The notes beneath the pieces were generated by a model. It ran no database searches and was not told where the DNA came from. It worked only from the letters and a program-made list of their open reading frames with translations. From Streptomyces marianii (GTDB lineage: Bacteria; Actinomycetota; Actinomycetes; Streptomycetales; Streptomycetaceae): a stretch of 64,000 nt of DNA. The translations under genes and the position numbers were made by a program. Positions 14,026 to 57,562 of the stretch are shown here, piece by piece. Positions within the stretch are counted from its first letter, which is position 1, and each line of letters opens with the position of its first letter. The stretch covers positions 2,266,501 through 2,330,500 of the forward strand of contig NZ_VAWE01000001.1 in assembly GCF_005795905.1 (NCBI RefSeq), given 5' to 3'.

Positions 14026-15414
14026 TCACCGCTCGGCTCCGATCCCCGCCGGGACACCCCGTGCGATGCCCGTGCGCAGTTGGAGTGCCAGGTCCACGTC
14101 CCGGGTGCCGGGCCGGTCGCGGCCCGCGAGATCGGCGATCGTCCAGGCGACCCGGAGCACACGGTCCATGCCCCGCGCGGTGAGCAGTCCCCGCTCCATG
14201 TCCCGCTCGGCCGCGGCGAGCGCGCCGGGAGCGGTGTGCCAGCGGGTACGCAGCTCATGCCCGGGAACCTCGCTGTTCGCGCGCCACGGGGTCCCATCCA
14301 GCCGGGCGGACGCTCTGTCCCGTGCCTCGCCGACCCGGGCCGCGACGACCGCGGACGGCTCTCCCCGGCCGCCCCTGCCCAGCAGGTCGGCCCGGTTGAC
14401 CGGCTCCACCTCGACTCGCAGGTCGACCCGGTCGAGCAGGGGTCCCGAGAGCCGCGCCTGGTACCGCCGGATCAGCGAGGCGGGGCAGTCGCATCCCGCG
14501 CCGTGCAGGGTGTGGCGGCCGCACGGGCAGGGGTTGGCAGCCAGAACCATGAGGAACCGGGCGGGCAGCCGGAGCACCCCCGCGCTCCTCGCGACGACCA
14601 CATGACCCGATTCAAGGGGCTGGCGAAGGGCGTCGAGCGCCTTGGCGGAGAACTCCGGGGCCTCGTCCAGGAACAGGACGCCCCGGTGCGCCAGGGACAC
14701 GGCGCCGGGTCTCGGCATGCCCTGACCACCGCCCACGAGGGACTGCATCGTCGCCGAATGGTGCGGAGCGCAGTAGGGCGGCATGCGCACCAGGGGCTCG
14801 CCGGGCGGGAGGATGCCCGCGACCGAATGGACGGCGGTGACCTCGAGGGACTCCCTGCGGGTGAGCGGCGGGAGCACGGACGCGAGCCGCTCCGCCAGCA
14901 TCGTCTTCCCCGCGCCCGGAGGGCCCTGGAGCAGCAGGTGGTGCCCCCCGGCCGCGGCGACCTCGACGGCGGTTCGCGCCCCGTGCTGCCCGGCCACGTC
15001 GGCCAGGTCCGGAAGGGAGCCCTCGCCCTGCCCCGGACCGGCGGCGAGCCCCGTGCCCACGCCGGCACCGGGGACCGTGAGTCCGGCGAGCATGGCGTCG
15101 GGCCGGCCGTCACCGTCCGGCTGCTCCTCCGGCACCGGCTCGTCGTTCAGCACCGCGATGAGCTGACGCAGGCTGCGCACCCCGAGGACCGAGACGCCCG
15201 GGACGAGCGAGGCCTCTCCCGCGGTCCGCTCGGGTACGACGACCTGCCGGTACCCTGCCTCCGCCGCGGCGAGCACCGCGGGAAGGACGCCCCGCACGGG
15301 GCGCACCCTCCCGTCGAGACCCAACTCGCCGAGGAGTACGAGATCCGCGATGGCCCTGGGATCGACCCGCTCGGCGGCGCCGAGGACGGCGCAGGCGACG
15401 GCGAGATCGAAGCC
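14026..15414 (-). pseudogene. comM: comM/yifB (Mg-chelatase-like AAA ATPase), 3' part, split by the prophage
   Basis: This piece encodes residues 80-541 of ComM/YifB, a branch-migration type AAA+ helicase. Visible are the Lon-like N-terminal part from FDLAVACAVLGAAERVDP, Walker A GPPGAGKTMLAERL, Walker B GVLFLDEAPEFSAKALDALR, sensor regions and the Cys cluster PCPCGRHTLHGAGCDCP. It has lost its start: reading upstream across attL meets a stop codon after a few codons. The first internal start is at 15324, so a 432-residue protein is conceivable but would miss the conserved N-terminus. Joined to the fragment at 57555-57799 it forms a complete uninterrupted frame. Confidence 0.95.
15404..15414. 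other. attL core (left attachment site)
   Basis: AGATCGAAGCC here matches AGGTCGAAGCC at 57552-57562 with one difference. To the left the sequence is comM; to the right it is phage. The inverted half-element AAAGACAG (15420-15427) pairs with CTGTCTTT at 57530-57537 in the reconstructed attP. Confidence 0.9.
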
Positions 15415-15461
15415 TAATGAAAGACAGGTCTAACGCAGCAGCTCAGAGGGTTGCCAGGGGG

Positions 15462-15917
15462 TCAGCAGGGCTCGTCGAGGTCAGCGTCACCAGTCCCCCG
15501 CGTGATCCAGATTTCATTGCGGACCATCTTGGTGAGGATCCACGTCATCTCGGCCTCAAGACGCGGACTGGCGTGCCCCTCACAGATGAGCCAGACATGC
15601 CCCGATGGCCGTTCGATCGATAGGAGCAGGCTGCCGGCAGGAAAGGTGCCGACGGGCGCGAGTTGCCAGCCAGCTTGGAGGATGCGGCGGGGGTGGACGC
15701 GATTCTCGGGCGTGTCGGGCAGTCGGTACCACTGCCCCGTCGCCATCCTGGATGCCTGCTGGGCGGTGAAGTCGTCGAGGATCTGCTGGCTGGCGTGTCC
15801 TGGTTCGATGATGACGTGGATGCCGCCGTCAGGGCCTGGTCGGATGTCGGCGATGCGGCCGATGGGCAGTTCGCCTGGCTCGGCGAACCTGAAGAGGACT
15901 TCGATGACCTTGTACAT
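15462..15917 (-). CDS. Hypothetical protein at the prophage left end
   Basis: A 151-residue soluble protein of unknown function starting MYKVIEVLFRFAEPGELPIG. The start at 15917 has GGAGGAG upstream; a longer in-frame start at 15986 is rejected. It contains a segment HVIIEPGHASQQILDDFTAQQASRM and a second half rich in Trp and hydrophobic strands. It lies downstream of the repressor on the same strand and is the last gene before attL, so it is probably expressed in the lysogen. Candidate lysogenic-conversion or exclusion gene by position only. Confidence 0.75.
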   Translation of the reverse strand: MYKVIEVLFRFAEPGELPIGRIADIRPGPDGGIHVIIEPGHASQQILDDFTAQQASRMATGQWYRLPDTPENRVHPRRILQAGWQLAPVGTFPAGSLLLSIERPSGHVWLICEGHASPRLEAEMTWILTKMVRNEIWITRGTGDADLDEPC

Positions 15918-16085
15918 GATGCTCCTCCCCGCCCCGGCGCATCCTAATCCGCACGCCAGTTCGAACCGGCATGTGGCCGGAGCCATTGCTTCCGCCCCCC
16001 AGGCGGAGAACCATCATGCACGGGATCTTCGCACTTTCAACAGACCAAAACCGAAAGTTACAAGCCGTCAGCTTTCGGTCGAAGT

Positions 16086-16505
16086 TCAGCCCCGCTGGAA
16101 CCTCTCCACCAGCTCCAACACCTTGCGCTGATCTTCGGGCGACAGGTCATTGAAGCCGGGGACCGTCGCCCGAACTTTTCGATCACGGCTGTACACCGAA
16201 TCCATGCCGAAGAACTGCGCAGCGGCAGCGTCCTGAACCCTATGAAGCGGCACCCTCAGGCCCGCAGCCAGTGCCCGCAGCTCGGGGATTCGTGGCGGCT
16301 TGACCCGCTCGCCGGCCAAAAGGTTACCGAGAGTGCTTCGCGTCCAGAGAGGCCCAGCCTCTGGCTCCTTCGCGTCGATGCACGCCGCCGCGAGTGCGCG
16401 GACACTGATCCCGAGCTCGGCAGTGCGGTCCCGCACGAGGTCGGCAAGGTCCGTTCTCTCCTCGGACGAGTCGGTGGGGGGTGGCGTCTCGTCGATCATC
16501 AGCAT
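16086..16505 (-). CDS. Putative phage repressor, XRE/Cro-CI type
   Basis: A 139-residue DNA-binding protein. A helix-turn-helix is seen in the first half (LADLVRDRTAELGISVRALAAAC, then RSTLGNLLAGERVKPPRIPELRALA), followed by a short acidic C-terminal tail FNDLSPEDQRKVLELVERFQ that may serve dimerisation. There is no protease domain of the LexA/CI kind. It is transcribed leftward, divergent from the early operon, across an intergenic region with several dyad operators. That position and domain make it the likely immunity repressor. Confidence 0.8.
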   Translation of the reverse strand: MLMIDETPPPTDSSEERTDLADLVRDRTAELGISVRALAAACIDAKEPEAGPLWTRSTLGNLLAGERVKPPRIPELRALAAGLRVPLHRVQDAAAAQFFGMDSVYSRDRKVRATVPGFNDLSPEDQRKVLELVERFQRG

Positions 16506-16749: not shown

Positions 16750-16768
16750 CAGCTCTTGAGGTCGCCCT

Positions 16769-17062
16769 ATGCACCTTGCACAGCGATACCGCCTGGTCAG
16801 CCCCACCCTGCTCCGCACCCTCATGGAACGGACCGGCGCCGGCTCCAGAGTCTCCGGCCGCGAACTCGCCACCCGAGTGGGCGTCTCCCACGGCCTGATT
16901 ACCAACCTGCTCAACGGCATCACCAAGACCACCCGCGCGGAGGTCGCGCAGGGAATCTGCCGCGTCATCGGCGTCGACCTGCTGATCCTGTGGGCCCCCA
17001 CAGGGCGTTCCGTCCCGGCTGATGACATCGACAACCAGCCAACGACTGTGGTGCTGGCGTGA
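16769..17062 (+). CDS. Small HTH DNA-binding protein (Cro-like), first early gene
   Basis: A 97-residue protein with a clear XRE-type helix-turn-helix: SGRELATRVGVSHGLITNLLNGITKTTRAEVAQGICRVIGVDL. GAGG lies eight bases before the ATG. As the first rightward gene facing the repressor it could act as Cro or as an early activator. The alternative is an excisionase-like accessory factor; the context favours Cro. Confidence 0.85.
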   Translation: MHLAQRYRLVSPTLLRTLMERTGAGSRVSGRELATRVGVSHGLITNLLNGITKTTRAEVAQGICRVIGVDLLILWAPTGRSVPADDIDNQPTTVVLA

Positions 17063-19152: not shown

Positions 19153-19781
19153 GCGACCTGACGACCACCCGCACGTTCGCCCGCGAGCTGCTCCAGACCC
19201 TAAACGGCGAGCCGCAGCCCGAGTGGCGCGCCTGCTTCAGCACCGACGGCAGCGAGGAGCCCACCGGCATCGCCCCGGTGTGCCCCGACGAGGACCACGA
19301 GCGCGCCGACGGCAGTGTCTACGGCTGTTGCCCGCTCCCGGTCATCGAGTGCGACTCGTACCCGATGGCGGCGTATCTGGCGGCGCTGTTGAACGCGGAC
19401 CGGCAGGAGAAGGACACCCGCAAGGGCGAGTCCACTCCACAGCCTCTCGGCACGTGCGGCCGCGCTCTGTCGACGGGCAAGCCGTGCCCCGAACACCCCA
19501 CGCCGCAGCCGCCCGCGCTGACTGTGTACCGCGCCTCCCACGACTCCATCGTGATGGGCCTCTACACCACCGCCACCGAAGCCCGCGCCCACTGCGTAGC
19601 TGAGGAACGGCACTCATGGGCGAAACACGAGACCCCCCTCTTCGACTGGATCGAGGACGAAGAGGACGGCGTCGCCGAGCTGGTCACCGTGGACAAGGGC
19701 GGCGAGACCGAGTCCGAGACGGGCTACGTCGTCACGGCCATTGAGGTCGCCTCCACGTACGACGAGGAGGCCGACGAGTGA
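19149..19781 (+). CDS. Hypothetical early protein
   Basis: A 210-residue acidic protein. The first half has spaced cysteines (WRACFSTDG, APVCPDEDHERADGSVYGCC), and the middle CGRALSTGKPCPEHPTPQP resembles a short zinc knuckle often seen in streptomycete phage proteins. The C-terminus is very acidic (FDWIEDEEDGVAELVTVD). Start and stop overlap the neighbours. Function unknown. Confidence 0.75.
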   Translation: MSDLTTTRTFARELLQTLNGEPQPEWRACFSTDGSEEPTGIAPVCPDEDHERADGSVYGCCPLPVIECDSYPMAAYLAALLNADRQEKDTRKGESTPQPLGTCGRALSTGKPCPEHPTPQPPALTVYRASHDSIVMGLYTTATEARAHCVAEERHSWAKHETPLFDWIEDEEDGVAELVTVDKGGETESETGYVVTAIEVASTYDEEADE

Positions 19782-20818
19782 CGACAGCCGCGCAGGCCGG
19801 GGCTAGCACCGCCCCGGCCGCCGGCCGCCGGGTCACCCCCACCGGCCGGCTCATCCTCCCCGCCACCGCCGACCGAGACGCGTGGCTCACCGCCCGCCGC
19901 TCCGGCATCGGCTCCTCCAACGTCCCCGCGATCCTCGGGCTTGTCGAGAAAAAGCCGCCGTTGACCGTCTACTACGACAAGACCGGCCACGACGTGGACG
20001 ACGCAGGCGAGCCCGCCTACTGGGGCAACGTCAACGAAGAGCCCGTGGCCCGCACCTGGGCCATGCGGAACCGGTCCGTGATCCGCCGCATCGGGCTCGT
20101 CGCCCACGTCGACCACCCGCACTGGATGACCACCCTGGACCGGCGCGTCACCGAGTGCCCGCTCTCCGAGGACGAGCAGGCGCCGTGCGCCCTGGAGGTC
20201 AAGACCCGCTCCGCGTTCAAGAGCGCGCAGTGGCACTCCGGAGCCCCCGACGACGTCACCGCCCAAGTGCTGTGGCAGATCATCGTCAACGGCTACGAGC
20301 ACATGCACTACGCCGTGCTGATCGGCGGCAACGAATACCACCAGGGCACCATCCGCGCCGACCAGTACACCGACGTCATGGCGGACATCACGACCGCCGT
20401 GGACCGGTTCTGGTTCGAGCACGTGCAGGCGCAGGTACCGCCGGAGCCGACCGGCGACGGCGACGCGCTGACGAGCCTGTTCCGCCGCCTGCACCCGACC
20501 CGGTCGGGGACGGTGGACATCGCCCGGCATGACGACGCCCTCGACGCGCTCGCCGACTACAACCGGCACCAGCGCGCGGAGTCGGCCGCGAAGAAGGCCA
20601 AGAGCGCCGCGAAAGCCCGCATGATCGCCGCTCTCGACGGCGCGCAAGAGGCGCAGATCGCTGGTGAGCGCGCGTACTCGCTGGAGCCGTCGAACGCCGC
20701 CCCGCGCGTGGATCTGGAGCTCCTCGCCGAACGCTGGCCCGCCGCCTACGAGGCGTGCGTGAAGGCCAACCCGACCGAACGAATCGCCATCGCGGCGCAG
20801 TACAAGGGGGATTTCTAA
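19778..20818 (+). CDS. YqaJ/lambda-exonuclease-type recombinase nuclease
   Basis: A 346-residue exonuclease that would resect double-stranded ends for phage recombination together with the neighbouring ERF protein. The PD-(D/E)XK family marks are RSGIGSSNVPAILG near residue 40, the glutamate in NEEPVARTW, and the core ALEVKTRSAFKSAQW with Glu-x-Lys. A helical C-terminal region (YNRHQRAESAAKKAKSAAKA) follows. GTG start overlaps the preceding stop. The annealing-protein partner directly downstream confirms the role. Confidence 0.88.
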   Translation: MTTAAQAGASTAPAAGRRVTPTGRLILPATADRDAWLTARRSGIGSSNVPAILGLVEKKPPLTVYYDKTGHDVDDAGEPAYWGNVNEEPVARTWAMRNRSVIRRIGLVAHVDHPHWMTTLDRRVTECPLSEDEQAPCALEVKTRSAFKSAQWHSGAPDDVTAQVLWQIIVNGYEHMHYAVLIGGNEYHQGTIRADQYTDVMADITTAVDRFWFEHVQAQVPPEPTGDGDALTSLFRRLHPTRSGTVDIARHDDALDALADYNRHQRAESAAKKAKSAAKARMIAALDGAQEAQIAGERAYSLEPSNAAPRVDLELLAERWPAAYEACVKANPTERIAIAAQYKGDF

Positions 20819-20819: not shown

Positions 20820-21596
20820 ATGGGCCTGCGCGAGAACGCCGCAGCCGCGGCCGGCCGCACCCTGACGGAAGGGGAGCAGGCCGCCGATGAGACGGCGCCC
20901 GAGCAGTTCGCCCCGGCGCCGGACCCGATGGCTGACTACGAGCCCGGCGACGACGACCCGGAGATGGTCCCGGTCCACGTCGCGTGGCTGCGGGTCCGCC
21001 GGGAGATTCGGGCGATCGCCAAGGGCGAGCTCTACAACCAGTCCGGCACCCGCTTCAACTTCCGCGGCGTCGACACGGTCGTGAACGTGTTCGGCCCGGT
21101 GACGCTGAAGCACGGCGTGCACGTGATGCCGACCGAGGTCACCGCCACCTACGGCGAGAAGACCACCAAGAACGGCGGCAAAATGCGGGAGTGCTCCGTC
21201 CTCGTCACCTGGACGATCATGGGGCCCAAGGGTGACACGCTCACCCTCCAGACGATGGGCGAGGCCCTCGACACCGCCGACAAGAGCACCACCAAGGCGC
21301 AGTCCGTCGCCCTACGGACGCTGCTCCTCTCCTTCGGCCTGACGCCGACGCACGACACGGACCCGGACGCCGACCGGCACGAGCGCGGCGCTGACCCGAT
21401 CCGGCCGGCCGTTTCGTACGTGGACGAGGTGTGCGACCCGCGCACCAGCGCCGGGCGTCTGCGGCAGATCCACCACGAGTTGAAAACCACGCGCCAGCTC
21501 GGTGCGCTGGTCACCAACGAGGTCGGCGAAGAGGAGCCGATCGGGGACCTGGTCGTCCGTCTCGGCAAGGAGCGCGCTGCCGGGGGTGGCCAGTGA
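20820..21596 (+). CDS. ERF-family single-strand annealing protein
   Basis: A 258-residue recombinase that anneals complementary single strands, partner of the exonuclease. After an acidic N-terminus, the ERF core reads VAWLRVRREIRAIAKGELYN, then FNFRGVDTVVNVFGPVTLKHGV, VTWTIMGPKGDTL and ADKSTTKAQSVALRTLLLSFGL, the latter the family's most conserved stretch. The AAGGGGG site lies inside the 3' end of the nuclease gene. Confidence 0.9.
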   Translation: MGLRENAAAAAGRTLTEGEQAADETAPEQFAPAPDPMADYEPGDDDPEMVPVHVAWLRVRREIRAIAKGELYNQSGTRFNFRGVDTVVNVFGPVTLKHGVHVMPTEVTATYGEKTTKNGGKMRECSVLVTWTIMGPKGDTLTLQTMGEALDTADKSTTKAQSVALRTLLLSFGLTPTHDTDPDADRHERGADPIRPAVSYVDEVCDPRTSAGRLRQIHHELKTTRQLGALVTNEVGEEEPIGDLVVRLGKERAAGGGQ

Positions 21597-22734: not shown

Positions 22735-22985
22735 CGCTCACCGAAGCGGAGTTGGACCGGCTCATCAAGGACATCGGCCTCAAGAAGCCCCGCGGCGGCA
22801 GCCAGCGCAAGCCGATCGCGCACGGCACCTACAAGGGCGCTCGCCAGCACCGCTACCGTGAAGAGCCCCTGTGCGAGCCGTGCCGCATCGCGGAGAACGC
22901 CTATCAGAACGAGCGGTACGCGGCACGCCGCGGCTACCTCACCGAGGAGCAGTGGCAGGCCCGCCAGGCAGGGGGGTCCCTGTGA
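22731..22985 (+). CDS. Small hypothetical protein with a CxxC pair
   Basis: An 84-residue basic protein. The central part IAHGTYKGARQHRYREEPLC then EPCRIAENAYQ suggests a small zinc-binding DNA-associated fold of a kind that is frequent in actinophages. Its start and stop overlap the neighbours. Confidence 0.75.
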   Translation: MTLTEAELDRLIKDIGLKKPRGGSQRKPIAHGTYKGARQHRYREEPLCEPCRIAENAYQNERYAARRGYLTEEQWQARQAGGSL

Positions 22986-23551
22986 CGCAGCTCGCCCTCG
23001 ACACCCCCGCGCCCGGGCTGACCCCCCGCCCCCTCGTGGTCGGCCTGGACCTCTCCCTCACCTCCACCGGCGTCGCGGGCGAAGGCTGGACCGACCGCAT
23101 CCGCACCAAACTCCGCGGAGACGAACGGCTCCGCCACCTCGTCGGCGCCGTCGCCCCGTTCGTCAAGGCCGCCGATCTGGTCGTGATGGAGGGACCGTCG
23201 TACGGACACGCGGCCCTCGCCGGGCACGAGGACCTCGCCGGGCTCCGCGTCCTGGTCCGCCAGTTCTGCTACCGGCAGTCCATCCCGTACGCCGTCATCC
23301 CGCCCTCCACGCTGAAGCTGTACGCCACCGGCTATGGCAAGGCGAGCAAGGGCGAGGTACGGTCCGCGGTCGCCGACCTATACGGCGTCTACACCGAGGG
23401 CGCCGCCCGCTACGACGAGGCAGACGCGTACGTGGCGATGGCCGCCGGGATGGCGTGGCTCGGGTACCCGCTCGCCGCGGTCCCGGAGCGGAACGGGAAG
23501 GCCCTCGCGGGTTGCGCGTGGCCGACGACGCCCGTGGCGGTGGCCCGATGA
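22982..23551 (+). CDS. RuvC-like Holliday junction resolvase
   Basis: A 189-residue RNase-H-fold endonuclease. The acidic active site is visible: Asp in VVGLDLSLTSTGVA near residue 22, Glu in LVVMEGPSYG near 66, and the terminal pair in ARYDEADAYVAMAAG. It would resolve or debranch phage DNA before packaging. The GTG overlaps the previous stop (GTGA). Confidence 0.9.
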   Translation: MTQLALDTPAPGLTPRPLVVGLDLSLTSTGVAGEGWTDRIRTKLRGDERLRHLVGAVAPFVKAADLVVMEGPSYGHAALAGHEDLAGLRVLVRQFCYRQSIPYAVIPPSTLKLYATGYGKASKGEVRSAVADLYGVYTEGAARYDEADAYVAMAAGMAWLGYPLAAVPERNGKALAGCAWPTTPVAVAR

Positions 23552-23802
23552 TCCTGCCGCTCGTCCCCGCCTGGCACGACGACGCGCTCTGCGCCCAGAC
23601 CGACCCTGACGCGTTCTTCCCCGAGGTCGGCAGCACGTCCGCCACCGCGAAAAGCGTGTGTACGGGGTGCCCCGTCCGCCGCGAATGCCTGGAACACGCC
23701 ATCGAGCACGGCGGGAACGTCGGCGTCTGGGGCGGGACAACCCCCAACCAACGCAGGGCCATCCGGCGGGCCCGGGACGAACGCAGAGAGCTCGCCGCAT
23801 GA
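23548..23802 (+). CDS. WhiB-like (Wbl) iron-sulfur regulator, phage-encoded
   Basis: An 84-residue Wbl protein. Four cysteines needed for a [4Fe-4S] cluster are spaced in the family way (DALCAQTDPDAFFP, SVCTGCPVRREC), followed by the GVWGG turn and a basic tail NQRRAIRRARDERREL that would contact DNA. Wbl proteins control sporulation and stress genes with the housekeeping sigma factor, and some actinophages carry a copy known to interfere with host WhiB function. This is a short, complete version in the early operon, directly after the RuvC-like gene (ATGA overlap). Confidence 0.92.
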   Translation: MILPLVPAWHDDALCAQTDPDAFFPEVGSTSATAKSVCTGCPVRRECLEHAIEHGGNVGVWGGTTPNQRRAIRRARDERRELAA

Positions 23803-24755: not shown

Positions 24756-26564
24756 GTGGAGAACGTCCGCCACCTGGAACCCCGCAACGAGGCGGACCCG
24801 CACGGCCCCGAGTACCTGGACGCCGAGCGGTACATCCTCGGTGACTGCATGTACGACGGCCGGAACGTCGACACCCTCCGCGCCGCAGGCTTCCAGCGCC
24901 ATGACTTCTCCCAGCCTGCCCACGAACTCATCTGGGACGTGCTGTGCGCCCTCCACGACAAGGGCGAGCCCACCGGCGCCACCGCCGTCGTCATCGCCCT
25001 CGACAAGCGCAAGGAACTCCAGCGCGCCGGCACCGCAAACTACGTCTCCCACCTCTCCAACTTCATCAGCGGAGATCCCACCTACTACGCCCTGGAGGTC
25101 CGCAAGCGCGCCGAGCTTCGCGCCGAGGCCGACCTCGGGCGCCGCCTCGTCCAGCAGGCCACCGCCCCCGACGCCGAACCCGGCGCGGCCGTCACCTTCA
25201 TTGACGACTATCTCCAGCGGCAGAAGGAACGCGCCGCCGGCCGCTCCGGCGACCCCGCAGACGCACTCCTCGCCGAACTTCTCGACGCCAGCGCCCTGGA
25301 CAACATGCCCACGCTGGAACCCCTCGTCGGCGACCTGCTGCACCTCGACACCCTCGCCCGGATCATCGGCCCCTCCGGGCACATGAAGTCGTTCGTCACC
25401 ATCGACCTCGCCGGGCACGTCGGCACCGGCATGCGCTGGCACGGCCACTACGTCCGTCAGGGCACCGTCGTCTACCTCGTCGCCGAGGGCGCCCGCGGCA
25501 TCCGCCAACGCGTCCGCGCGTGGGAGAACCACTACGGCGTGAAGATGGACAACGTCCTCTTCCTGCCCCGCCCCGTGCAGGCCCGCGGCGCAGAGTGGGA
25601 CGTCCTGATCGAGGCCATGCGGCGCCTCGGCCCGCAGCTCATCGTCATCGACACACAGGCCCGCGTCTCGGTCGGCGTGGAGGAGAACTCCAACACCGAA
25701 CTCGGCATCGTCATCGAGCGCATGGACGACCTCCGCCGCGCCACCGAAGCGTGCGTCCTCCTGATCCATCACACCGGCCACGTGGGCGAGCACGGCCGCG
25801 GCGCGTCGGCCGCGAAGGGCGCCCTCCAGTCCGAGATGCACGTGTCGAAGAAGGGCGACAACGCCCGGAACATCGTCGTCACGATGAAGGTCGGCAAGCA
25901 GAAGGACAGCGAGGAAGGCGCCGACCTCCAGTTCGGGTTGAAGGTCGTCACCCTCGACGGCGAGTACAAGCCCGACGGCCGGCCCGTGACGTCCGTGGTG
26001 CTGGAGTCCCTCGACCTGCGCGGCCCGGCCGAACCGGTCAAGGGCACCCCCGAGTGGCTCGTCACCGTCCTCGACAAGGCCGACATTCCCATGCGCTGGG
26101 GCAGCCCCCGCGTCATCAAGTGGTGCTCCGAGTACGGCATCCAAATGCGCAAGGACAAGATCGAAGAGGCGGTCCGTCAGCGCAAGCGCCGGGACTCCCT
26201 CGATGAGGCCCAGGAGGCCCCCGAAGACCTCCCCCCGAACCTCCCCCGCGATCTTGAACGCGAAACTCCCCCGGATCTTGGGGGGACCTCGGGGGAGTTT
26301 GAACAAAACCGCAGGTCAAACATCCCCCCAAACCCGGGGGGAGGTCGGGGGGATGGCCCATCAAAACCTCCCTCCCCCCGCTCCCCCTCTAGGGAGGGGG
26401 GAGGTGTGGGGGAGGACGAGAAAACCACCACCCCCGACACCCCTCTCTGCACCATCTGCACCCAGCCCATGAACACCGACTGGGCCAACCGCGGCTACGA
26501 CACCCACATCGGCTGCGACCCCCACACCGGCAGCCACCCAGACACCGGACACGGCGCCGCCTGA
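24756..26564 (+). CDS. Replicative helicase, RepA-like/DnaB N-terminal fusion
   Basis: A 602-residue protein. Residues 15-130 look like a DnaB N-terminal domain (EYLDAERYILGDCM, FSQPAHELIWDVLCALHDKG). Then comes a RecA-fold ATPase with Walker A GPSGHMKS (about 205-212) and Walker B QLIVIDT (about 294-300), plus the helicase-like VLLIHHTGHVG. A Pro/Gly-rich linker follows (about 487-555, encoded by long C and G runs). A C-terminal CxxC zinc motif CTICTQPMNTDW ends the protein. GTG 24756 is supported by GAGGAG. It would load at or open the phage origin; no primase domain is evident. The start excludes a long spurious upstream frame. Confidence 0.87.
   Translation: MENVRHLEPRNEADPHGPEYLDAERYILGDCMYDGRNVDTLRAAGFQRHDFSQPAHELIWDVLCALHDKGEPTGATAVVIALDKRKELQRAGTANYVSHLSNFISGDPTYYALEVRKRAELRAEADLGRRLVQQATAPDAEPGAAVTFIDDYLQRQKERAAGRSGDPADALLAELLDASALDNMPTLEPLVGDLLHLDTLARIIGPSGHMKSFVTIDLAGHVGTGMRWHGHYVRQGTVVYLVAEGARGIRQRVRAWENHYGVKMDNVLFLPRPVQARGAEWDVLIEAMRRLGPQLIVIDTQARVSVGVEENSNTELGIVIERMDDLRRATEACVLLIHHTGHVGEHGRGASAAKGALQSEMHVSKKGDNARNIVVTMKVGKQKDSEEGADLQFGLKVVTLDGEYKPDGRPVTSVVLESLDLRGPAEPVKGTPEWLVTVLDKADIPMRWGSPRVIKWCSEYGIQMRKDKIEEAVRQRKRRDSLDEAQEAPEDLPPNLPRDLERETPPDLGGTSGEFEQNRRSNIPPNPGGGRGDGPSKPPSPRSPSREGGGVGEDEKTTTPDTPLCTICTQPMNTDWANRGYDTHIGCDPHTGSHPDTGHGAA
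26221..26420. other. C/G-run tract inside the helicase gene, replication origin candidate
   Basis: Runs of 5-6 C or G alternate over about 200 bases. They include the near-repeats CTCCCCCGCGATCTTGAA and CTCCCCCGGATCTTGG, the inverted pair GGGGGAGTTTGA / TCAAACATCCCCC and a CCTCCCTCCCCCC / GGGAGGGGGGAGG stem. The encoded peptide is low-complexity, so the constraint seems to be on the DNA. Confidence 0.4.
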
Positions 26565-37801: not shown

Positions 37802-37817
37802 CCCGAGGGGAGACAGC

Positions 37818-42941: not shown

Positions 42942-43252
42942 CCCTCCCGGGGTTCCTGCGGCAGCACACGGTCACGGTGGAGCCGCTCCTCGGCACCAGC
43001 CCCACGGGCACCGTGTACGGGGCGCCGGTGGAGGTCCGCGGACTGCTGCGGCAGTCCACGCGCCTGGTACGGAACCCGGCGGGCGAAGAGGTCACGTCCT
43101 CCAGCACGTTCTACGCGCCGCTGGACACGGTGGCGCCGGCCCGCTCACGGGTGACCCTGCCCGGCGGCCGGACCACCACCGTGATCGCGTCGGTGCCGCA
43201 GGACGGCGGGAAACTTCCCGTCCCGTCGCATCTGGAGGTGCAGCTCCAGTGA
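42938..43252 (+). CDS. Head-tail stopper-like protein
   Basis: A 104-residue beta-rich protein (HTVTVEPLLGTSPTGTVYGA, TTTVIASVPQDGGKLPVPSH). GTG start overlaps the adaptor stop. Identity inferred from size and position. Confidence 0.7.
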   Translation: MTLPGFLRQHTVTVEPLLGTSPTGTVYGAPVEVRGLLRQSTRLVRNPAGEEVTSSSTFYAPLDTVAPARSRVTLPGGRTTTVIASVPQDGGKLPVPSHLEVQLQ

Positions 43253-43599
43253 CGCAGTACGCGCGCATGTCGTGGACGGGGCAGCGTCTGTGGACCGGCC
43301 GGGGCCGGCGCGCGGCGTCGAAGGGGCTTCAGAAGGCGTTGGAGCACACCCTCGGGGTCGCGAACCGGCTGGTGCCGTTGGAGGAGGGCACCCTCGAACG
43401 CTCCGGCCGGGTGAACGTGGACGGCCTGAACGGGGCGATCTCGTACGACGCAGTGTACGCCGTCCGTCAGCACGAAGAGCTGACGTGGCGACACCTGCCG
43501 GGCCGCCAGGCGAAGTACCTGGAGCAGCCCATGAACACGGAGCGGGACACCATGCTCCGCCTGATGCACGTCTCGCTGCGGGACTGGCTCCGCGGCTGA
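43249..43599 (+). CDS. HK97 gp10-type tail-completion/head-tail joining protein
   Basis: A 116-residue protein with LQKALEHTLGVANRLVPLEE followed by GTLERSGRV and YAVRQHEELTWRHLPGRQAK. The phrase 'VP...EGTLERSG...YA..QHE' is characteristic of gp10-type minor capsid/tail completion proteins. Confidence 0.82.
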   Translation: MTQYARMSWTGQRLWTGRGRRAASKGLQKALEHTLGVANRLVPLEEGTLERSGRVNVDGLNGAISYDAVYAVRQHEELTWRHLPGRQAKYLEQPMNTERDTMLRLMHVSLRDWLRG

Positions 43600-43608
43600 C
43601 CCAGGGGG

Positions 43609-44052
43609 GTGACCGTGGCTCACACGCGCGCCCTCCTCGAAGGGCTGGCGGGGCTCCTCGCGGACGCGGGGCTCGGGGTGTACCGACCGAACCCCGGAGA
43701 GGTCTACGCGGCCGATGAGACGGCACTCGGGTTCGGCGCCATGCCGGACAGCCCGGACCGGGTGATCTGGCTCAACACCTACCCGGTGGAAGACACCGAC
43801 CAGCCGGACGCGATCACGGGCGTCCAGTTCCGCATCCGCGTCGGACCGGATCCGCTCGAAGCGGGCGACATCGCCGACGCCGTGTTCGCCCAGCTCCACA
43901 ACCGGCAGGCCCTCACCTTCGGCTCCCTGCGCGTGGGCCTGATCTGGCGCCAGTCGCAAGCCCTGATGGGGCAGGACGCGACCGGCCGCGAGGAGCTCAC
44001 CGCCAACTACTACGCCCGGACCGTCAGGCCGGCGCCGTACCTGAACGACTAG
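43609..44052 (+). CDS. Tail terminator-like protein
   Basis: A 147-residue protein (LEGLAGLLADAGLGVYRPNP, VIWLNTYPVEDTDQPDAITG, FRIRVGPDPLEAGDIADAVF). Size, fold pattern and place just upstream of the tail tube match tail terminators, which cap the tail tube. Confidence 0.78.
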   Translation: MTVAHTRALLEGLAGLLADAGLGVYRPNPGEVYAADETALGFGAMPDSPDRVIWLNTYPVEDTDQPDAITGVQFRIRVGPDPLEAGDIADAVFAQLHNRQALTFGSLRVGLIWRQSQALMGQDATGREELTANYYARTVRPAPYLND

Positions 44053-44064
44053 GAGGACCGCGTC

Positions 44065-44535
44065 ATGTCGACGCCGACCGAGACCGCGCTGGCCCGCCGC
44101 TGGCGGATGGACGTCAACATGGGCGCGTCCGGCTCCCCGGACTGGCAACTGTGCCCGGCGATCACCGAGTTCCAGTGGACCGCCGACCCGAACCACGAAG
44201 ACGACACCACGTACGACTCCGACGGGTGGAAGACCAACGTCAAGACGGCGCAGGAGTGGGAGGTCGAAGCGACGTTCAACCGCAAGGCGTCGCCGGACTC
44301 CACGACCTACAGCCCGGTGCACGAGAAGCTGCGCGCGGCGTTCCTCGCCTACGGGGAGGACTCTCGTGTCGGGATCCGCTTCTACGACCGCAACGGCCTG
44401 CCGGAGGCGTACTCGGGTGACGTCCTCGTGGCGTGGGAGCCGCAGGGCGGCGAGTACACCGACTTGGACCAGGTGCAGGTGACGCTCACCGGCACGGGTC
44501 CGCTCACGTCGATCACGAACCCGGTGACGCCCTGA
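44065..44535 (+). CDS. Major tail (tube) protein
   Basis: A 156-residue protein with WRMDVNMGASGSPDWQLCPA, ITEFQWTADPNHEDDTTYDS and DQVQVTLTGTGPLTSITNP, the arrangement of siphovirus tail-tube subunits. Next come the chaperone genes and the tape measure. Confidence 0.88.
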   Translation: MSTPTETALARRWRMDVNMGASGSPDWQLCPAITEFQWTADPNHEDDTTYDSDGWKTNVKTAQEWEVEATFNRKASPDSTTYSPVHEKLRAAFLAYGEDSRVGIRFYDRNGLPEAYSGDVLVAWEPQGGEYTDLDQVQVTLTGTGPLTSITNPVTP

Positions 44536-45032
44536 TGGCCGGTTTCAAGGTCCTGGACGAGTTCCTCGGAGACTCCCTCGACCTGCCCGTCCGGTGCAAC
44601 GACGGCGAGATCCGCACCTTCCACATCCCCGCCCCCTCCGCCGAGGACGGGCTCCGCGTGGAGGCCCTGATGGAGCTCGGGATCCGCATGGCCGCGGAGG
44701 GCGCCGACCCGGACACCGAGGTCCTGGACGACGCTCAGGAACTGGACCTGTACCGGACCGTTCTCGGGCCCGCCTACGACGACGCGATCAAGTTCCTCAA
44801 CTCCGCGCGGTTCAAGGTCCTCGCGCTGACCGCGATGCTGTGGATCACGCAGGGCCTCGACGCCGCCGAAGCCTGCTGGAACGCGGGCGGCGTCCCTTCT
44901 CAGGCAGCCCCGAACCGGGAGCAGCGCCGCGCCTCATCCCGTGCGGCGAAATCGACCCGGTCACGGGGCTCGCAGAGTGGTACGAGTACCCCGCCGGCTA
45001 CAAGCCGCGCCCGAAAGGCCGCACAGACCTGA
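44535..45032 (+). CDS. Tail assembly chaperone G
   Basis: A 165-residue protein (LDEFLGDSLDLPVRCNDGEI, FNSARF-like DDAIKFLNSARFKVLALTAM, LWITQGLDAAEACW). The last 40 residues in this frame are Ser/Arg-rich and may represent the unshifted product. Together with the -1 frame downstream it is the classical G / G-T pair between tube and tape measure genes. Confidence 0.85.
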   Translation: MAGFKVLDEFLGDSLDLPVRCNDGEIRTFHIPAPSAEDGLRVEALMELGIRMAAEGADPDTEVLDDAQELDLYRTVLGPAYDDAIKFLNSARFKVLALTAMLWITQGLDAAEACWNAGGVPSQAAPNREQRRASSRAAKSTRSRGSQSGTSTPPATSRARKAAQT

Positions 45033-45244
45033 CGTGGGGGCTCCTCCTCGATGAGTGGGCGCTCATCGAGGCGGACCTCCACGAGGTGTACGGCGTCGAC
45101 CTGTCTACGCCGGGCCTGCTCCAGACGCGGTCGTGGCGGTGGTTGCGGATCCGCATTCTCGGGTTGCTCTCCACGGAGTGCCGTCTGTCGCGGCACTTCG
45201 CACCCCCTGAACCGAAGCAACCGAAGCGGAAGGGGGGCCGGTAG
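44535..45244 (+). CDS. Tail assembly chaperone G-T, by -1 ribosomal frameshift (site not fixed)
   Basis: The -1 frame is open from 44594 to the stop at 45242-45244. It encodes a T domain with EIDPVTGLAEWYEYPAGYKP, TWGLLLDEWALIEADLHEVY and RTRSW-like TRSWRWLRIRILGLLSTE. It has no start of its own in a sensible place, so it is expected as a C-terminal extension of G. The slip should occur roughly between 44870 and 44940. I find no canonical X-XXY-YYZ heptamer there; GTCCCTTC and GCCCCGAAC are the nearest C-rich sites. The T stop overlaps the tape measure start. Confidence 0.75.
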
Positions 45245-47511
45245 TGGCGCTCAACATCGGCGACCTGTACGCCACCATCCGCGCGGACGACCGGGGATTC
45301 CGGAGCGGCCTGAACGAGGCGCAGCTCCGGCTCGCCGGGTTCACGCGCATGGCAGACGGCCGACTCCGCGACATGCACGGCCGGTTCGTATCACAGTCGG
45401 ACGCCATGGCCCGCACGATCGGCGCCCGCTTCGCCGCCGCGGCGCGGACGGCCGGGCAAGCGCTCCTCACGGCGGGGCAGGCGGCGGCGAAGTTCGGGGC
45501 GGCGCTCGGGGTGGGCGTGCCCGCGGCGACGGCGATGCTGACCGCGCTCGGGGGTCTTGCTGCGGGGGCGGTCGCCGCGGGGGTGGCGTTCGGGGCGTTC
45601 AAGGCCGCCGCACAGCCGCAGCTCGAATCGGTCACGGAGGCGACGGAGGCCGCCGAAGCTGCCGAAGAGGCCCACGAAAAAGTCCTCCTCAAGAAGCAGC
45701 TCGCCGCGAAGCTCGCAGCCAAGGGCGGCGACAAGTACAAGCAGGCGCTCAGGGACGTGGAGTCGGCGCAGCGGGCCGCTACGGAGGCCGACGCGGCGGC
45801 GAAGACGGCGATGGAGGGGCTGCCTCCGGCGACGCAGCAGACGGCGAAGGCGTTCGCGGGTCTGAAGAGCGACTACGAGTCGTGGTCCGACAGTCTCGCG
45901 TCTACGACGATGCCGGTGTTCACCAAGGGCATTGGGGTCCTGCGGGATCTGCTGCCGCAGCTCACCCCGTTCGTGAAGGCCGCAGCCAGCGCGTTCTCCG
46001 ACCTGCTCGACCGGATCGCCGTGGGGGTGAAGTCGGCCCGCTTCAAGGAGTGGGCGGCGGACATGTCCGCGGCGGCCGGCCCGGCGCTGCGGAACTTCCT
46101 GACCGCGATCGGGAACTTCGCGCGCGGGTTCGGCTCCCTGATGCAAGCCTTCCTGCCGCAGTCGGCGGCCGTCACCGGCGGACTCGTGTCCATGTCGGCG
46201 GCGTTCGCGGACTGGGCCGGGTCGCTGAAGGGCTCGGAAGGGTTCGCCGAGTTCGTCGCGCTCGCACGCGAGGGCGGGTCGACGCTCGGGCTCCTCGGCT
46301 CCGCTGCGGTGGATCTGCTGGTGGCACTGGCGCCGCTGATCGGCACCACGGCGGTGATCGCGAAGGCCCTCGCGCAGGTCATCAACAACACCCCGACGCC
46401 CGTACTGACCGCGCTGGCCACGGTGATTGCGAGCGTCGCCATCGGCATGAAGTTGTACGCCGCGGGCGCGGCGGTGGTGGCCGTGGCGAACCGGGTCATC
46501 GCCTCGTCGGCGTGGACGGCGGTGGCCGGGTGGATGCGGATGATGGCCGTCGGGCTGATGACGTACGTGCGGATCGGCGCGGCTGCGGTCGCGTCGGCGG
46601 CGACGACGGCGGCGGCGTGGGTCGGTTCTGCGCTGGTGTCGATCGGTACGTGGGTGGCGGCCGTGGTGCGGGCTGCGGTCATGGCGGTGGGGCAGTTCGC
46701 GCTCATGGCCGCGCGGGCGGTTGTGTGGGCGGCGACGATGGCCGCTCAGTGGCTGATCGCGATGGGCCCGATCGGCTGGATCATCGCTGCGGTGATCGGC
46801 CTGACGGCGCTGATCGTCGCCAACTGGGACAAGATCAAGGAGTGGACCGGTAAGGCGTGGGACTGGGTCTGGTCGAAGATCCGGGGCGTCGGCCAGATGA
46901 TCGTGAACTTCATCGCGAACATCCCCCTGGTCCGGTTCTTCATCCAACACTGGGACCGCATCAAGTCCGGCGTGGTCAGCCGCACCATGGGCCTGCTCTC
47001 CTACATCCGCAGCCTCCCCGGCAAGATCATATCCGGGCTCGGGAACCTCGGCTCGCTGCTGGTCGACAAGGGCAAGGACGTCATCCGCGGCCTGTGGAAC
47101 GGCATCAAGAGCATGGGCGGCTGGCTGAAGTCAGCCCTGATCGGATTCGCGAAGAGCATGATCCCAGGCCCGATCGCGTCCGCACTCGGCATCAGCAGCC
47201 CCTCCAAGCTCATGGCTCGCGAGGTCGGCCGCTGGATCCCGCCCGGTATCGCGATGGGCGCCGAGAAGAACGCAGGCGTGCTGGACCGCACCATGGCCAA
47301 CCTCGTCACTCCGCCTCGCGTCGGGGCGATGGCGGGCGGGGCTTCGCTCGGCGCGGGCATGACGGGCGGCGGCCGGGCCGCACGACAACAGGTCATCGTC
47401 ATCCGCGGCGACGGCAGCGCGCGGGCTGACTTCATCCTCGGTGAGCTCGCGCACGCCGTGAACAAGCGCGGCGGGGACGTACAGCTGGCCGTGACCGGCC
47501 GAAGGGGGTAA
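45244..47511 (+). CDS. Tape measure protein
   Basis: A 755-residue protein that sets tail length. N-terminal IGDLYATIRADDRGFRSGLN, coiled-coil stretches (TEATEAAEAAEEAHEKVLLK), several long hydrophobic segments (LALIGTTAVIAKALAQVI-like and GPIGWIIAAVIGLTALIVAN), the WDKIKEWTGKAWDWVW motif and GISSPSKLMAREVGRWIPPG near the C-terminus. All are hallmarks of actinophage tape measures. The length would suit a tail of roughly 110 nm, at the usual 0.15 nm per residue. Confidence 0.95.
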   Translation: MALNIGDLYATIRADDRGFRSGLNEAQLRLAGFTRMADGRLRDMHGRFVSQSDAMARTIGARFAAAARTAGQALLTAGQAAAKFGAALGVGVPAATAMLTALGGLAAGAVAAGVAFGAFKAAAQPQLESVTEATEAAEAAEEAHEKVLLKKQLAAKLAAKGGDKYKQALRDVESAQRAATEADAAAKTAMEGLPPATQQTAKAFAGLKSDYESWSDSLASTTMPVFTKGIGVLRDLLPQLTPFVKAAASAFSDLLDRIAVGVKSARFKEWAADMSAAAGPALRNFLTAIGNFARGFGSLMQAFLPQSAAVTGGLVSMSAAFADWAGSLKGSEGFAEFVALAREGGSTLGLLGSAAVDLLVALAPLIGTTAVIAKALAQVINNTPTPVLTALATVIASVAIGMKLYAAGAAVVAVANRVIASSAWTAVAGWMRMMAVGLMTYVRIGAAAVASAATTAAAWVGSALVSIGTWVAAVVRAAVMAVGQFALMAARAVVWAATMAAQWLIAMGPIGWIIAAVIGLTALIVANWDKIKEWTGKAWDWVWSKIRGVGQMIVNFIANIPLVRFFIQHWDRIKSGVVSRTMGLLSYIRSLPGKIISGLGNLGSLLVDKGKDVIRGLWNGIKSMGGWLKSALIGFAKSMIPGPIASALGISSPSKLMAREVGRWIPPGIAMGAEKNAGVLDRTMANLVTPPRVGAMAGGASLGAGMTGGGRAARQQVIVIRGDGSARADFILGELAHAVNKRGGDVQLAVTGRRG

Positions 47512-51679: not shown

Positions 51680-52789
51680 ATGGCCAACCCGATGCCAGCG
51701 CAGACGCTGGCGGACATCCTGCGCGACGAGGGCCTGACCGTGGTCGAGGTCGGCACCTGGCGCACCCACAACCGCAACCACAAGGGCCCGTGGGGGCCCG
51801 TGCACGGGGTGATGATCCACCACACCGTGACGTCCGGAACGCAGCGGACCGTCGACATCTGCCGCACCGGCTACAGCGGCCTGCCCGGTCCGCTGTGCCA
51901 CGGCGTCATCGCGAAGGACGGCACGGTCTACCTGGTCGGCTACGGCCGGGCGAACCACGCCGGTTCCGGCGACGGCGACGTCCTGCGCGCCGTCATCGCC
52001 GAGACCCCGGCACTGCCGGCCGACAACGAGGCGAACACCGACGGGAACCGGCACTTCTACGGCTTCGAGTGCGAGAACCTCGGCGACGGCAAGGACCCCT
52101 GGCCGGACGTCCAGCTGGAGGCGATCGAGCGAGCGTCAGCCGCGATTTGCCGCTGGCACCGGTGGGGCCCGAGGAGCGTGATCGGGCACCTGGAGTGGCA
52201 GCCGGGCAAGGTCGACCCGCGGGGCTTCGCCATGGACGACGTGCGGGACCGGATCGCTGACCGGCTCGCCGTAGACCCGGAGCCCGAGCAGCCGCCGAAG
52301 ACACCCCCGGTGCAGGGTGGCTCGTACACGGTGGAGAAGGGCGACACCCTCTCCGCGATCGGCCGGAAGCTGGATGTGCCGTGGGCGGACATCGCGACGG
52401 CCAACAGCATCAAGGCCCCGTACACGATCCGCCCGGGGCAGAAGCTGAAGATCCCCAGCAAGACGACCGCGAAGCCGCCCGCCGCGCCGAAGCCCCCGCC
52501 GCGGCCGGTGGTGGACCTGTCGCGGCTCGTCGCCGCCGCGAAGGCCGACCCGCCGAAGCGCGGCACCCCGGTCAGCTACTACGGCGTGAAGACCGTGGAA
52601 CAGGCCCTCGTTAAGGAGGGGCTCCTCGGCCCGAGCCTCGCTGACGGGCACTTCGGCACCGCCACCCGCACCGCGTACGCCTCGTGGCAGCGCCGGTGCG
52701 GCTACTCCGGCAAGGACGCCGACGGCATCCCCGGAGCCACGTCCCTGAAGAAGCTGGCCGCCCGACGCGGCTTCACTGTCACCGCCTGA
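51680..52789 (+). CDS. Endolysin: N-acetylmuramoyl-L-alanine amidase with LysM and C-terminal PG-binding part
   Basis: A 369-residue lysin that cleaves the amide bond between glycan and peptide in the cell wall. Amidase_2 core: HGVMIHHTVTSGTQRTVDIC (zinc His near 47/48), PLCHGVIAKDGTVYLVGYGR and VIGHLEWQPGKVDPRGFAM (second zinc His and the acidic residues). A LysM module follows at about 212-255 (SYTVEKGDTLSAIGRKLDVP). A Pro/Lys linker leads to a C-terminal peptidoglycan-binding-like part (VEQALVKEGLLGPSLADGHF). GGAGG is upstream of ATG 51680. No signal peptide, so it relies on holin. Confidence 0.95.
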   Translation: MANPMPAQTLADILRDEGLTVVEVGTWRTHNRNHKGPWGPVHGVMIHHTVTSGTQRTVDICRTGYSGLPGPLCHGVIAKDGTVYLVGYGRANHAGSGDGDVLRAVIAETPALPADNEANTDGNRHFYGFECENLGDGKDPWPDVQLEAIERASAAICRWHRWGPRSVIGHLEWQPGKVDPRGFAMDDVRDRIADRLAVDPEPEQPPKTPPVQGGSYTVEKGDTLSAIGRKLDVPWADIATANSIKAPYTIRPGQKLKIPSKTTAKPPAAPKPPPRPVVDLSRLVAAAKADPPKRGTPVSYYGVKTVEQALVKEGLLGPSLADGHFGTATRTAYASWQRRCGYSGKDADGIPGATSLKKLAARRGFTVTA

Positions 52790-55938: not shown

Positions 55939-56063
55939 TCTCTTCCAGCCCGGTGCGACGGACGAGCGACCCTGGCACGTAGAGCAGATGGAGGGCCGCT
56001 CGCCCACCCCGTGTACGGCCCTCGCGGAACCACCTCCCCCAGGCGGACTGTGAGGTGCCCGCG

Positions 56064-56087
56064 ACGCCCCCGCTTCGGCGGGGGCGT
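56064..56087. terminator. Bidirectional UUCG-loop terminator
   Basis: ACGCCCCCGC (56064-56073), TTCG loop, GCGGGGGCGT (56078-56087). It lies 13 bases beyond the integrase stop codon and serves the leftward integrase gene. Confidence 0.85.
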
Positions 56088-56100
56088 TGCTGCGTTCCCG

Positions 56101-57507
56101 CTACTTCCAGTCGATTCGCACCGCGTCCGGATCCCAGTAGCCGCCTCCCGGGATCCGCCCCTTCCGAGCAGGGAGCACGGTCACCGTCATCAGGTAGGCG
56201 ATCACGGCCCGCTTCCGGGACAGATCAAGCCCTTTCCAGGCCGCTTCCGGATCCTCAGCTCCCACCAGGCCCACTACTGGATTCACCTTCACCGCGTGAG
56301 ACATCGTCTTTTCCGCCGACTCCAGGCGCGCCCTGGCCGCCGCAGAGGCAACCGTCCATGAGCGCATGTCCAGCTCGCCCCGGCCCAGCCCTTTCGCGAG
56401 TTCATCGAGCGTGGCCCTTGCCTCCCGCAACTCGGCCTGAGCTGCCCGCACATCCACCGGGTCCTCGCGCTCCGCCAACAGGTCCAAGGCGTCCGGCCGG
56501 GACAGACGCTCCAGAATGGCCAGTTGGACCCAGTCGTCCAGCAGGTCACGTCTGCGTGTGATGTGCCTCCCGGTGCGGCACCGGTAGGCAGGCCAGTGCT
56601 TCTTTCCGGGTCCGGTGCCCGCAGTCGACGCCCGCACCGTGGCACCGCACATACCGCACAGGTACAGGTTGCTACCGAGGTACTTTCGCTCGTTCCCGGG
56701 CGTGACCCGGCGAGACGGGTCGTCGAGGATCGCTACCAGGCTTCGCCACTTGGGCTCAGGGATCGCTGGATCCCACTCTCCGGGGCCGACCTCTTGGCCG
56801 CGGTGCACGCGGATGCCTGCGTTGCGGGCGCGACGGAGCATGCTGCCCAGCTCCGGCCCTGTCCACTCTGCTCCGGTGCTGGTCGTGATGTCTCTCGCGT
56901 TCCAGCCCGCGGCGATTGATCGCAGGGACGCGCCGGCCAGCACCGCGTCAGCGGCCTCGGCAATCAGGCTGCGCTCGAATTCGTTCGTGGTCACACCGTC
57001 GGCTTCCCAGCCGAACGGGCGACGCCCGCCGAAGTGCTTCCCTTTCTGCGCCATCTGATCCCGGGCTCGTCGCTGCCGCTCCACCATGCGCTCCACCTCG
57101 TAGCGGGCCTGGACCCCGAGCTGGCGAGCGATCATGCGCCCCGTGGCCGTGGAGAGGTCAAGGTGGCCTGCCTTGACCGTGCGAGTGTCGATCCTGCGGG
57201 GCTCGCATACGTCGATGTACTGCTCCAGCTCCGCGGGAGAACGGTGAAGGCGGTCGGTATGCCAGGCCAGGACGATGTCTGCGCGGCCCGCTCGCAGGTC
57301 GTCGAGGAGTTGCCGGTACCCGGGGCGGGGCTTGCCGCTGTAGGCGCTGAGGTCGTTGTCCTCGTGGATGCCGACGACGGTCAGGCCGAGGCTCTCGGCC
57401 AGGGCGGTGCAGTCTTCGAGCTGGCGTTGAATGCCGAGGCCAGCTCCTTCCCGGTCGCGGCTGATGCGGCAGTAGATGAGCGCTCGGGCGCCGTCGGTGG
57501 GTGCCAT
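56101..57507 (-). CDS. int: Large serine recombinase (prophage integrase)
   Basis: A 468-residue integrase that joins attP with the attB inside comM. Catalytic domain: IYCRISRDREGAGLGIQRQL with nucleophile Ser16, then DLRAGRADIVLAWHTDRLHR. The recombinase domain includes FGGRRPFGWEADG and LRSIAAGWNARDITTSTGAE. The zinc-ribbon part has LCGMCGATVRAST and YRCRTGRHITRR. A coiled-coil motif follows (AELREARATLDELAKGLGRG). The gene lies 47 bases from the attR core. It is transcribed leftward in the same direction as yraN-comM, so it may be read from the host promoter in the lysogen. Confidence 0.97.
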   Translation of the reverse strand: MAPTDGARALIYCRISRDREGAGLGIQRQLEDCTALAESLGLTVVGIHEDNDLSAYSGKPRPGYRQLLDDLRAGRADIVLAWHTDRLHRSPAELEQYIDVCEPRRIDTRTVKAGHLDLSTATGRMIARQLGVQARYEVERMVERQRRARDQMAQKGKHFGGRRPFGWEADGVTTNEFERSLIAEAADAVLAGASLRSIAAGWNARDITTSTGAEWTGPELGSMLRRARNAGIRVHRGQEVGPGEWDPAIPEPKWRSLVAILDDPSRRVTPGNERKYLGSNLYLCGMCGATVRASTAGTGPGKKHWPAYRCRTGRHITRRRDLLDDWVQLAILERLSRPDALDLLAEREDPVDVRAAQAELREARATLDELAKGLGRGELDMRSWTVASAAARARLESAEKTMSHAVKVNPVVGLVGAEDPEAAWKGLDLSRKRAVIAYLMTVTVLPARKGRIPGGGYWDPDAVRIDWK

Positions 57508-57529
57508 AGTTCATCCTGGCACGGAAGGA

Positions 57530-57562
57530 CTGTCTTTGGCTCAGGTTCGCTAGGTCGAAGCC
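57530..57562. other. attR with half of the attP palindrome
   Basis: CTGTCTTT (57530-57537) and the core AGGTCGAAGCC (57552-57562). Joining this end to the left phage end gives an attP whose two 25-base arms match at 16 positions in inverted order around the central AG (57552-57553). To the right the sequence is comM. Confidence 0.9.

Follow-up and report, generated by a model that had tools for sequence, protein, structure and literature searches.

Durrant et al. (2022, PMC10083194) reported, for large serine integrases, that a "magnesium chelatase/ATP-dependent protease" gene is targeted by 12.4% of predicted site-specific integrases and that competence genes are enriched among the targets. 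The ChlI, Mg_chelatase and AAA+ domains of ComM/YifB suggest that the targeted gene is comM. The current study concerns a prophage that interrupts comM in Streptomyces marianii and that lies within a stretch of 64,000 nucleotides (contig NZ_VAWE01000001.1, positions 2,266,501 to 2,330,500 of the forward strand), designated the window. Its integrase belongs to the same recombinase class as those of Durrant et al. and would share their target gene family. Insertion in comM is also reported for Tn6022 and Tsy, which occupy a position near Walker B (PMC10293859), whereas the window prophage uses a serine integrase at the FDL motif of the ChlI domain. The comM gene of A. baumannii is described as interrupted by many elements, an inactivation linked to lower transformation (PMC11472951).

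Among Streptomyces phages, the integrases of phiBT1, TG1, SV1, phiJoe, phiOZJ, phiWTR, R4 and Samy are treated in PMC12924846, and their attB sites include protein-coding genes, as does that of the window prophage; comM, chelatase and YifB do not occur in the main text of that paper. The top-ranked named-phage integrases, those of phiScoe3 and phiCAM, were just 37.6% and 37.5% identical to the window enzyme (best 30 of 970 matches, all 970 being below 60%). The integrases of the phages listed with phiBT1, TG1 and SV1 are presumably of the serine class. A prophage that splits a host gene which is restored by excision is represented by phiSa3 in hlb of S. aureus, where cue-responsive excision has been studied; the sequence predicts the same restoration here. 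The recombinase of phiSa3 is of a different class from the serine integrase of the window, and comK of Listeria is a further precedent for a gene-splitting switch.

The first-pass annotation of the window knew of no described serine integrase with a site in comM. That such a target is undescribed is, as stated, not supported, since Durrant et al. (PMC10083194) report such targeting for the gene family, and both the preference for comM and its mechanism are already known from other surveys. A comM attB in Streptomyces was not described in the literature titles and abstract openings searched, a scope outside which subscription papers and supplements fell. As far as the literature was searched, what is new is the phage itself, the integrase with its att pair and a site-by-site map of comM in Streptomyces. 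The published tendency of mobile elements to insert in comM now extends to Streptomyces, where it involves several motifs, several recombinase groups and the neighbouring gene dprA.

The divided comM gene and the serine integrase

The element is very probably a temperate, siphovirus-type Streptomyces prophage with a large serine integrase and a fixed attB at the G-F-D-L motif of the ComM ChlI domain. Comparison of the junctions, the joined frame and empty sites placed it at 15404..57562, attL to attR, a length of approximately 42.1 kb, with comM split between the G-F-D and L codons. On the plus strand the attL core was AGATCGAAGCC (15404..15414) and the attR core was AGGTCGAAGCC (57552..57562), both defined by junction comparison, with the position of CT in the latter taken from attP symmetry and from relatives. 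The two cores were identical in 10 of 11 bases and the sole mismatch was the synonymous third base of the Asp codon. The 3' part of comM (14026..15414, minus strand) encoded the Mg_chelatase AAA+ and C-terminal domains in an open frame, with an upstream stop near 15430 in the lysogen, and the 5' part (57552..57799, minus strand) encoded approximately residues 1-83, in the ChlI domain, and read about 130 codons into prophage DNA.

Once joined, the host flanks read as one uninterrupted frame of 541 residues with its start at 57799. The S. marianii genome contained comM solely as two pieces, residues 1-84 and 78-541. The intact ComM proteins of relatives spanned the join and were 96% (G230), 94% (G034) and 92% (G379 and G273) identical over residues 1-541, and the DNA of 11 intact relatives had no break at the join position. 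The coordinates, the full-length 541-residue ComM and the synonymous difference in the Asp codon had all been given in the first-pass annotation and were confirmed, and the alignment with intact comM of related Streptomyces that it proposed was uninterrupted. Its description of a serine-integrase prophage with comM as attB and dprA next door is supported by the PF00239 and PF07508 matches of the integrase, the empty sites and the PF02481 match of dprA, while exact restoration of the gene on excision is to be expected from the joined frame.

By itself the att repeat was not significant, because seven 11-mers within one mismatch of the core, both att cores counted among them, occur in the window. 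The insertion is instead demonstrated by the comparison with empty sites, by the prophages of other genomes and by intact attP in metagenomic phage contigs. A repeat was found at the same comM codons in four other prophages (G078, G248, G041 and G465); the junctions of a further one, G281, share only CCTG. A chance repeat or an assembly artefact, which so short a match (10/11) might suggest, has a negligible probability and was ruled out because independent assemblies of several genomes have the insertion at these codons and because attP occurs in phage contigs.

The integrase gene (56101..57507, minus strand, 468 amino acids) started 44 bases from the attR core and was oriented in the comM direction. 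Its product had an N-terminal resolvase domain (PF00239, E 1.2e-28) and a recombinase domain (PF07508, E 1.2e-7, above the Pfam cut-off). No match to the zinc ribbon PF13408 was found in the integrase, and a CxxC...C...H stretch was discernible by eye. The protein was 99% identical to an integrase of Streptomyces sp. HNM0645, and 13 of 392 Streptomyces genomes, S. marianii included, encoded a relative with an E value of 1e-80 or lower. Together with 117 further genomes of the genus, these 392, which formed the first comM search, make up the 509 genomes considered below. Related integrases, 40% to approximately 70% identical, lay directly behind the first comM residues in six further genomes (G078, G248, G281, G041, G465 and the eroded G167), and comM of G152 was likewise cut at these codons, where the contigs end and no integrase was visible. 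The codon-83 site was used in 8/509 genomes, namely S. marianii, the six with an integrase and G152, the last by position only. In all of the integrants where it was visible (7/7), the integrase pointed the same way as comM and lay just behind the 5' fragment.

The crossover would occur at the dinucleotide CT, bases 1 and 2 of the Leu83 codon on the comM strand, in the conserved ChlI-domain G-F-D-L motif. It was placed there because the attP arms are symmetric about CT and because CT is kept in the relatives, including G281, although the junctions of that prophage share so little sequence. The phage arms of S. marianii and G078, CTGTCTTT and AAAGACAG, were 30 bp apart and centred on CT by eye. 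An uninterrupted attP of the GGGTTCGACCTAGCGAACCC type, with CT again at its centre, was present in the IMG/VR phage contigs L008, L009, L010-L013 (probably one phage) and L014, and the two arms of the L008 attP matched the prophage of G248 at either end. Features of the integrase class were present: a gene 44 bases from an 11-bp core with one mismatch, and inverted attP arms around what appears to be a non-palindromic dinucleotide. Outside the window, five site-83 prophages have both ends; automatic core detection, applied to four of them, recovered the core in G078 and in G248 and part of it in G465 but missed the short one in G281. At the other comM sites it returned mostly short, chance-like matches.

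Recombination of attP with attB by the integrase would take place at the CT dinucleotide of Leu83. To judge from the gene structure, comM is disrupted in the lysogen, and ComM would be inactive, the first 83 residues being separated from the rest of the protein. Excision, assisted by a directionality factor, would restore comM exactly.

Several observations weigh against this assignment, 1) the 970 matches to named phages were all less than 60% identical, so that no cultured relative anchors the site, 2) integrases 62-67% identical were found in other genes (L017 and L019 in an NCS1-type permease gene, by eye, and L005/L020 elsewhere), which indicates that the choice of target has changed among these relatives and that comM is not an absolute group property, 3) on a tree of 28 integrases the comM users were scattered and the comM label needed 6 changes, about what shuffles give, and 4) no recombination directionality factor was recognisable among the annotated prophage genes, in the subset of genes searched. 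When the comM users and the phages with the same attP type were given one label on a tree of 25 integrases, 6 changes were needed compared with a shuffled mean of 8.7 (27 of 500 shuffles were as low). The G281 integrase, 40% identical, was on a long branch.

Four other relatives of the integrase (L022, L023, L025 and L028; 45-47% identical) were located by eye at the Walker A codons of an apparently CpaF/TadA-type ATPase gene. A terminator-like hairpin was also seen by eye just before the att site on the left end of the phage, in the direction of the integrase, in L006, L008-L010, L095, L129 and L160. Transcription of the integrase from the comM promoter after integration was considered and dropped; several relatives show such a hairpin before att and a -10-like element before the integrase (by eye).

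Insertions in comM and dprA across Streptomyces

The comM gene was found in 391 of the 392 genomes of the first search, so that the integrase, with its attP and an attB in this gene, could serve as an orthogonal integration vector. Interruptions of comM were present in 35 of the 509 genomes, which had 37 insertions in seven combinations of recombinase and site. The insertions measured approximately 4.6 to 77 kb where both junctions share one contig. Of the 35 interrupted genomes, 29 had the two comM pieces on a single contig, more than 4 kb apart; in the other six the pieces were spread over different contigs or a junction had been eroded (G041, G063, G152, G167, G504 and G523). Ten genomes with contig ends, frameshifts or poor assemblies (G050, G087, G116, G119, G224, G276, G309, G331, G375 and G450) were left out as unclear, as was G102, which had no comM match; comM of G082 was a contiguous gene with a long linker. 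The comM locus was inspected in 43 genomes of the first set and in 13 and 19 more (15 of the 19, with weaker or double matches, were full length), and single strong matches were counted as intact.

A serine recombinase was associated with codon 83 in the eight genomes described above (G152 by position only), with the Walker A codons 244-248 in four genomes and with Walker B, at about codon 329, in six. Walker B was also the site of a Tsy-like trio in eight genomes. A tyrosine recombinase occupied a position just before Walker A, at about codon 235, in two genomes, a tyrosine-recombinase operon was found at about codon 54 in four (G504 by position only), and an operon weakly similar to the latter at about codon 370 in five (G523 by position only). 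Two insertions were found in one comM gene in G192 (L104/L105), at Walker A and Walker B, and in G454 (L165-L167), at about codons 54 and 370.

The Tsy-like trios at the Walker B codons (L106, L109, L110, L117, L118, L122, L126 and L170) encoded proteins of approximately 396, 870 and 195 amino acids. In L109, the sole trio submitted to Pfam, two proteins had a Phage_integrase domain and the third was a DUF6262 protein. In location and gene sizes the trios fit Tsy, an operon of YRec, TnsF-like and HTH genes in comM at Walker B. The multi-gene tyrosine-recombinase operons at about codons 54 and 370 (L098-L100, L111, L123 and L164-L167) consisted of one integrase-like and two large proteins; in L099 no Pfam match was found.

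Two control genes, dprA and radA, were compared with comM in one set of 199 genomes; for all three genes, an insert was counted when it exceeded 4 kb and the two pieces of the gene shared a contig. Inserts were present in comM in 16 genomes, in dprA in seven and in radA in none; without the restriction on contig and length, comM was interrupted in 20/199. The Fisher p values, uncorrected for genome relatedness, were 2e-5 for comM versus radA, 0.015 for dprA versus radA and 0.08 for comM versus dprA. The dprA inserts (G027, G083, G093, G132, G134, G142 and G178) ranged from 4.9 to 21 kb and were situated at approximately residues 90, 160, 232 and 265, and G083 and G142 had inserts in both comM and dprA. 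These dprA counts come from inspection of 45 of the 199 genomes, with pieces on different contigs (e.g. G041, G050, G076 and G127) and single partial matches (e.g. G008, G063, G118 and G152) uncounted. For radA, ten of the 199 genomes were inspected and the query was the E. coli gene; the pieces were adjacent in the three split-looking cases, G171, G180 and G119. Consequently, dprA is also a target rather than a clean negative control, and comM is not clearly set apart from it, in agreement with the published enrichment of competence genes among targets. In G171 radA was broken, without an insert, into two adjacent pieces, and in G180 there was a 0.3 kb gap with the middle part missing.

Explanations for the use of comM

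We regard the prophage as a temperate phage of the ordinary kind whose landing site is well chosen. That comM is a frequent landing gene is most likely because its conservation at the codon level provides a constant target in a gene that the cell can lose. A related explanation, that conservation alone accounts for the hits on comM, without any preference over other conserved non-essential genes, is unlikely. The comM sites do fall at conserved motifs, relatives of the integrase also use the Walker A codons of the CpaF-type ATPase gene (by eye), and dprA and comM showed no clear difference (p 0.08). However, radA, a conserved recombination ATPase, had inserts in 0/199 genomes, a comparison made with two control genes, an E. 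coli radA query and no correction for relatedness.

Another possibility is that elements gain by breaking comM, and dprA, and thereby hinder their own removal by recombination with incoming DNA, as proposed in the chromosome-curing hypothesis. This explanation is tentative and somewhat doubtful. Several distinct recombinase systems converge on comM, the adjoining DNA-uptake recombination gene dprA was hit in 7/199 genomes and radA in 0/199, with both comM and dprA hit in G083 and G142, and selection of this kind is consistent with the enrichment of competence genes among targets that Durrant et al. describe (PMC10083194) and with the lower transformation linked to comM inactivation in A. baumannii (PMC11472951). 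The clustering of comM insertions at conserved motifs, however, is predicted equally by the convenience of the site, and since comM and dprA are neighbours the effect could be regional. Moreover, the second insertion in the already broken comM of G192 and G454 cannot have been selected for inactivating the gene. Natural transformation is not known to be established in Streptomyces, although dprA (PF02481) and a PF03772 (ComEC-type) gene are present. A more elaborate form of this explanation is distinctly unlikely: that distinct recombinase groups became locked on comM codons (in the ChlI domain, Walker A, Walker B and the sensor-1 region), and others on dprA, in a convergent breaking of the ComM/DprA step, as cells then purge elements less, and that lysogens can return the gene by excision. 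The comM/dprA hot spot allows the effect of ComM or DprA loss on recombination and element loss to be tested in a genus without established natural transformation.

The first-pass annotation had also suggested that the phage may switch ComM on by excising. Excision of this kind is possible, given the domain-bearing integrase and the intact comM halves, but a reversible switch (active lysogeny), in which non-lytic excision under some condition would turn ComM on before re-integration, is very unlikely. Its attractions are the exact restoration of the frame in the sequence, an integrase with its recombinase domains, the phiSa3 precedent in another gene, hlb, and the position of the integrase behind the comM 5' fragment in the comM direction in 7/7 integrants, so that transcription of the comM operon could reach the integrase. 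The comM halves also show no decay. Comparison of S. marianii comM with that of G230 gave a dN/dS of 0.11, as between intact genes, and the numbers of unique residues in the two were 10 and 10 with G034 as outgroup and 11/8, 7/9 and 8/10 with three other outgroups. The comM 3' pieces were stop-free in six of six other integrants (G078, G248, G281, G465, G152 and G167); the 3' part in G041, however, had a second break. Exactness is no evidence for a switch, since any serine-integrase excision restores its target, and any recent integration would look alike. In G167, attR, most of the 5' part of comM and the integrase N-terminus are gone, yet the comM 3' part is still open, so that open frames indicate recency as well as a switch; the intact halves were therefore rejected as proof of switching. 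Because natural transformation is not known to be established in the genus, "switching competence" goes beyond the evidence.

The decayed lysogen of G167 (L162) arose by a deletion that puts comM residues 1-26 beside approximately residue 116 of the integrase, with loss of attR, and probably freezes the prophage in comM.

Other genes of the prophage and its surroundings

Thirty of the proteins encoded by the element were searched in PHROGs and eight, among them the integrase, in Pfam, a subset of its genes. All of the genes that follow are on the plus strand, except for an HTH repressor-like gene near attL (16086..16505, minus strand, phrog_12831), which is matched by homologues at this end of the prophages in G078, G248 and G465. 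A divergent HTH (Cro-like) gene (16769..17062, PF13560) also has homologues in these three. The recombination and replication genes encoded a RecE-like exonuclease (19778..20818, phrog_434), an Erf-like single-strand annealing protein (20820..21596, phrog_155), a RuvC-like Holliday junction resolvase (22982..23551, phrog_159, without a Pfam match) and a primase/helicase (24756..26564, phrog_906 and phrog_19), and a WhiB-like regulator was found at 23518..23802 (phrog_472). The packaging and head genes were those for the terminase large subunit (33808..35106, phrog_2), the portal (35093..36655, phrog_533), two minor head or head morphogenesis proteins (36659..38885, both phrog_12049, the first also PF06152) and the major head protein (39980..41038, phrog_212). 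The head-tail adaptor and connectors, a minor head protein, the major tail protein and a tail assembly chaperone (42537..45032) were assigned by PHROGs, and were followed by the tape measure protein (45244..47511, phrog_305) and the endolysin (51680..52789, phrog_880). With packaging, head, tail, lysis, replication, recombination, regulator and integrase genes all present, the term complete, as first applied to the prophage, is fair by gene content. The DNA of positions 33000-55600 had patchy similarity to named phages in 24 records, the largest being the endolysin stretch at 3% of the query.

The host genes were arranged on the minus strand in the order yraN, comM, dprA and a WhiG-like sigma factor gene, the last named by eye. 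The yraN gene (57799..58179, UPF0102, PF02021) overlapped the start codon of comM, and dprA (12801..13967, PF02481) was uninterrupted downstream of comM. Near the left edge of the window (336-4566), open reading frames at 336-971 and 3343-4566 resembled, by eye, a tyrosine recombinase and a transposase, respectively, and perhaps belong to another mobile element.

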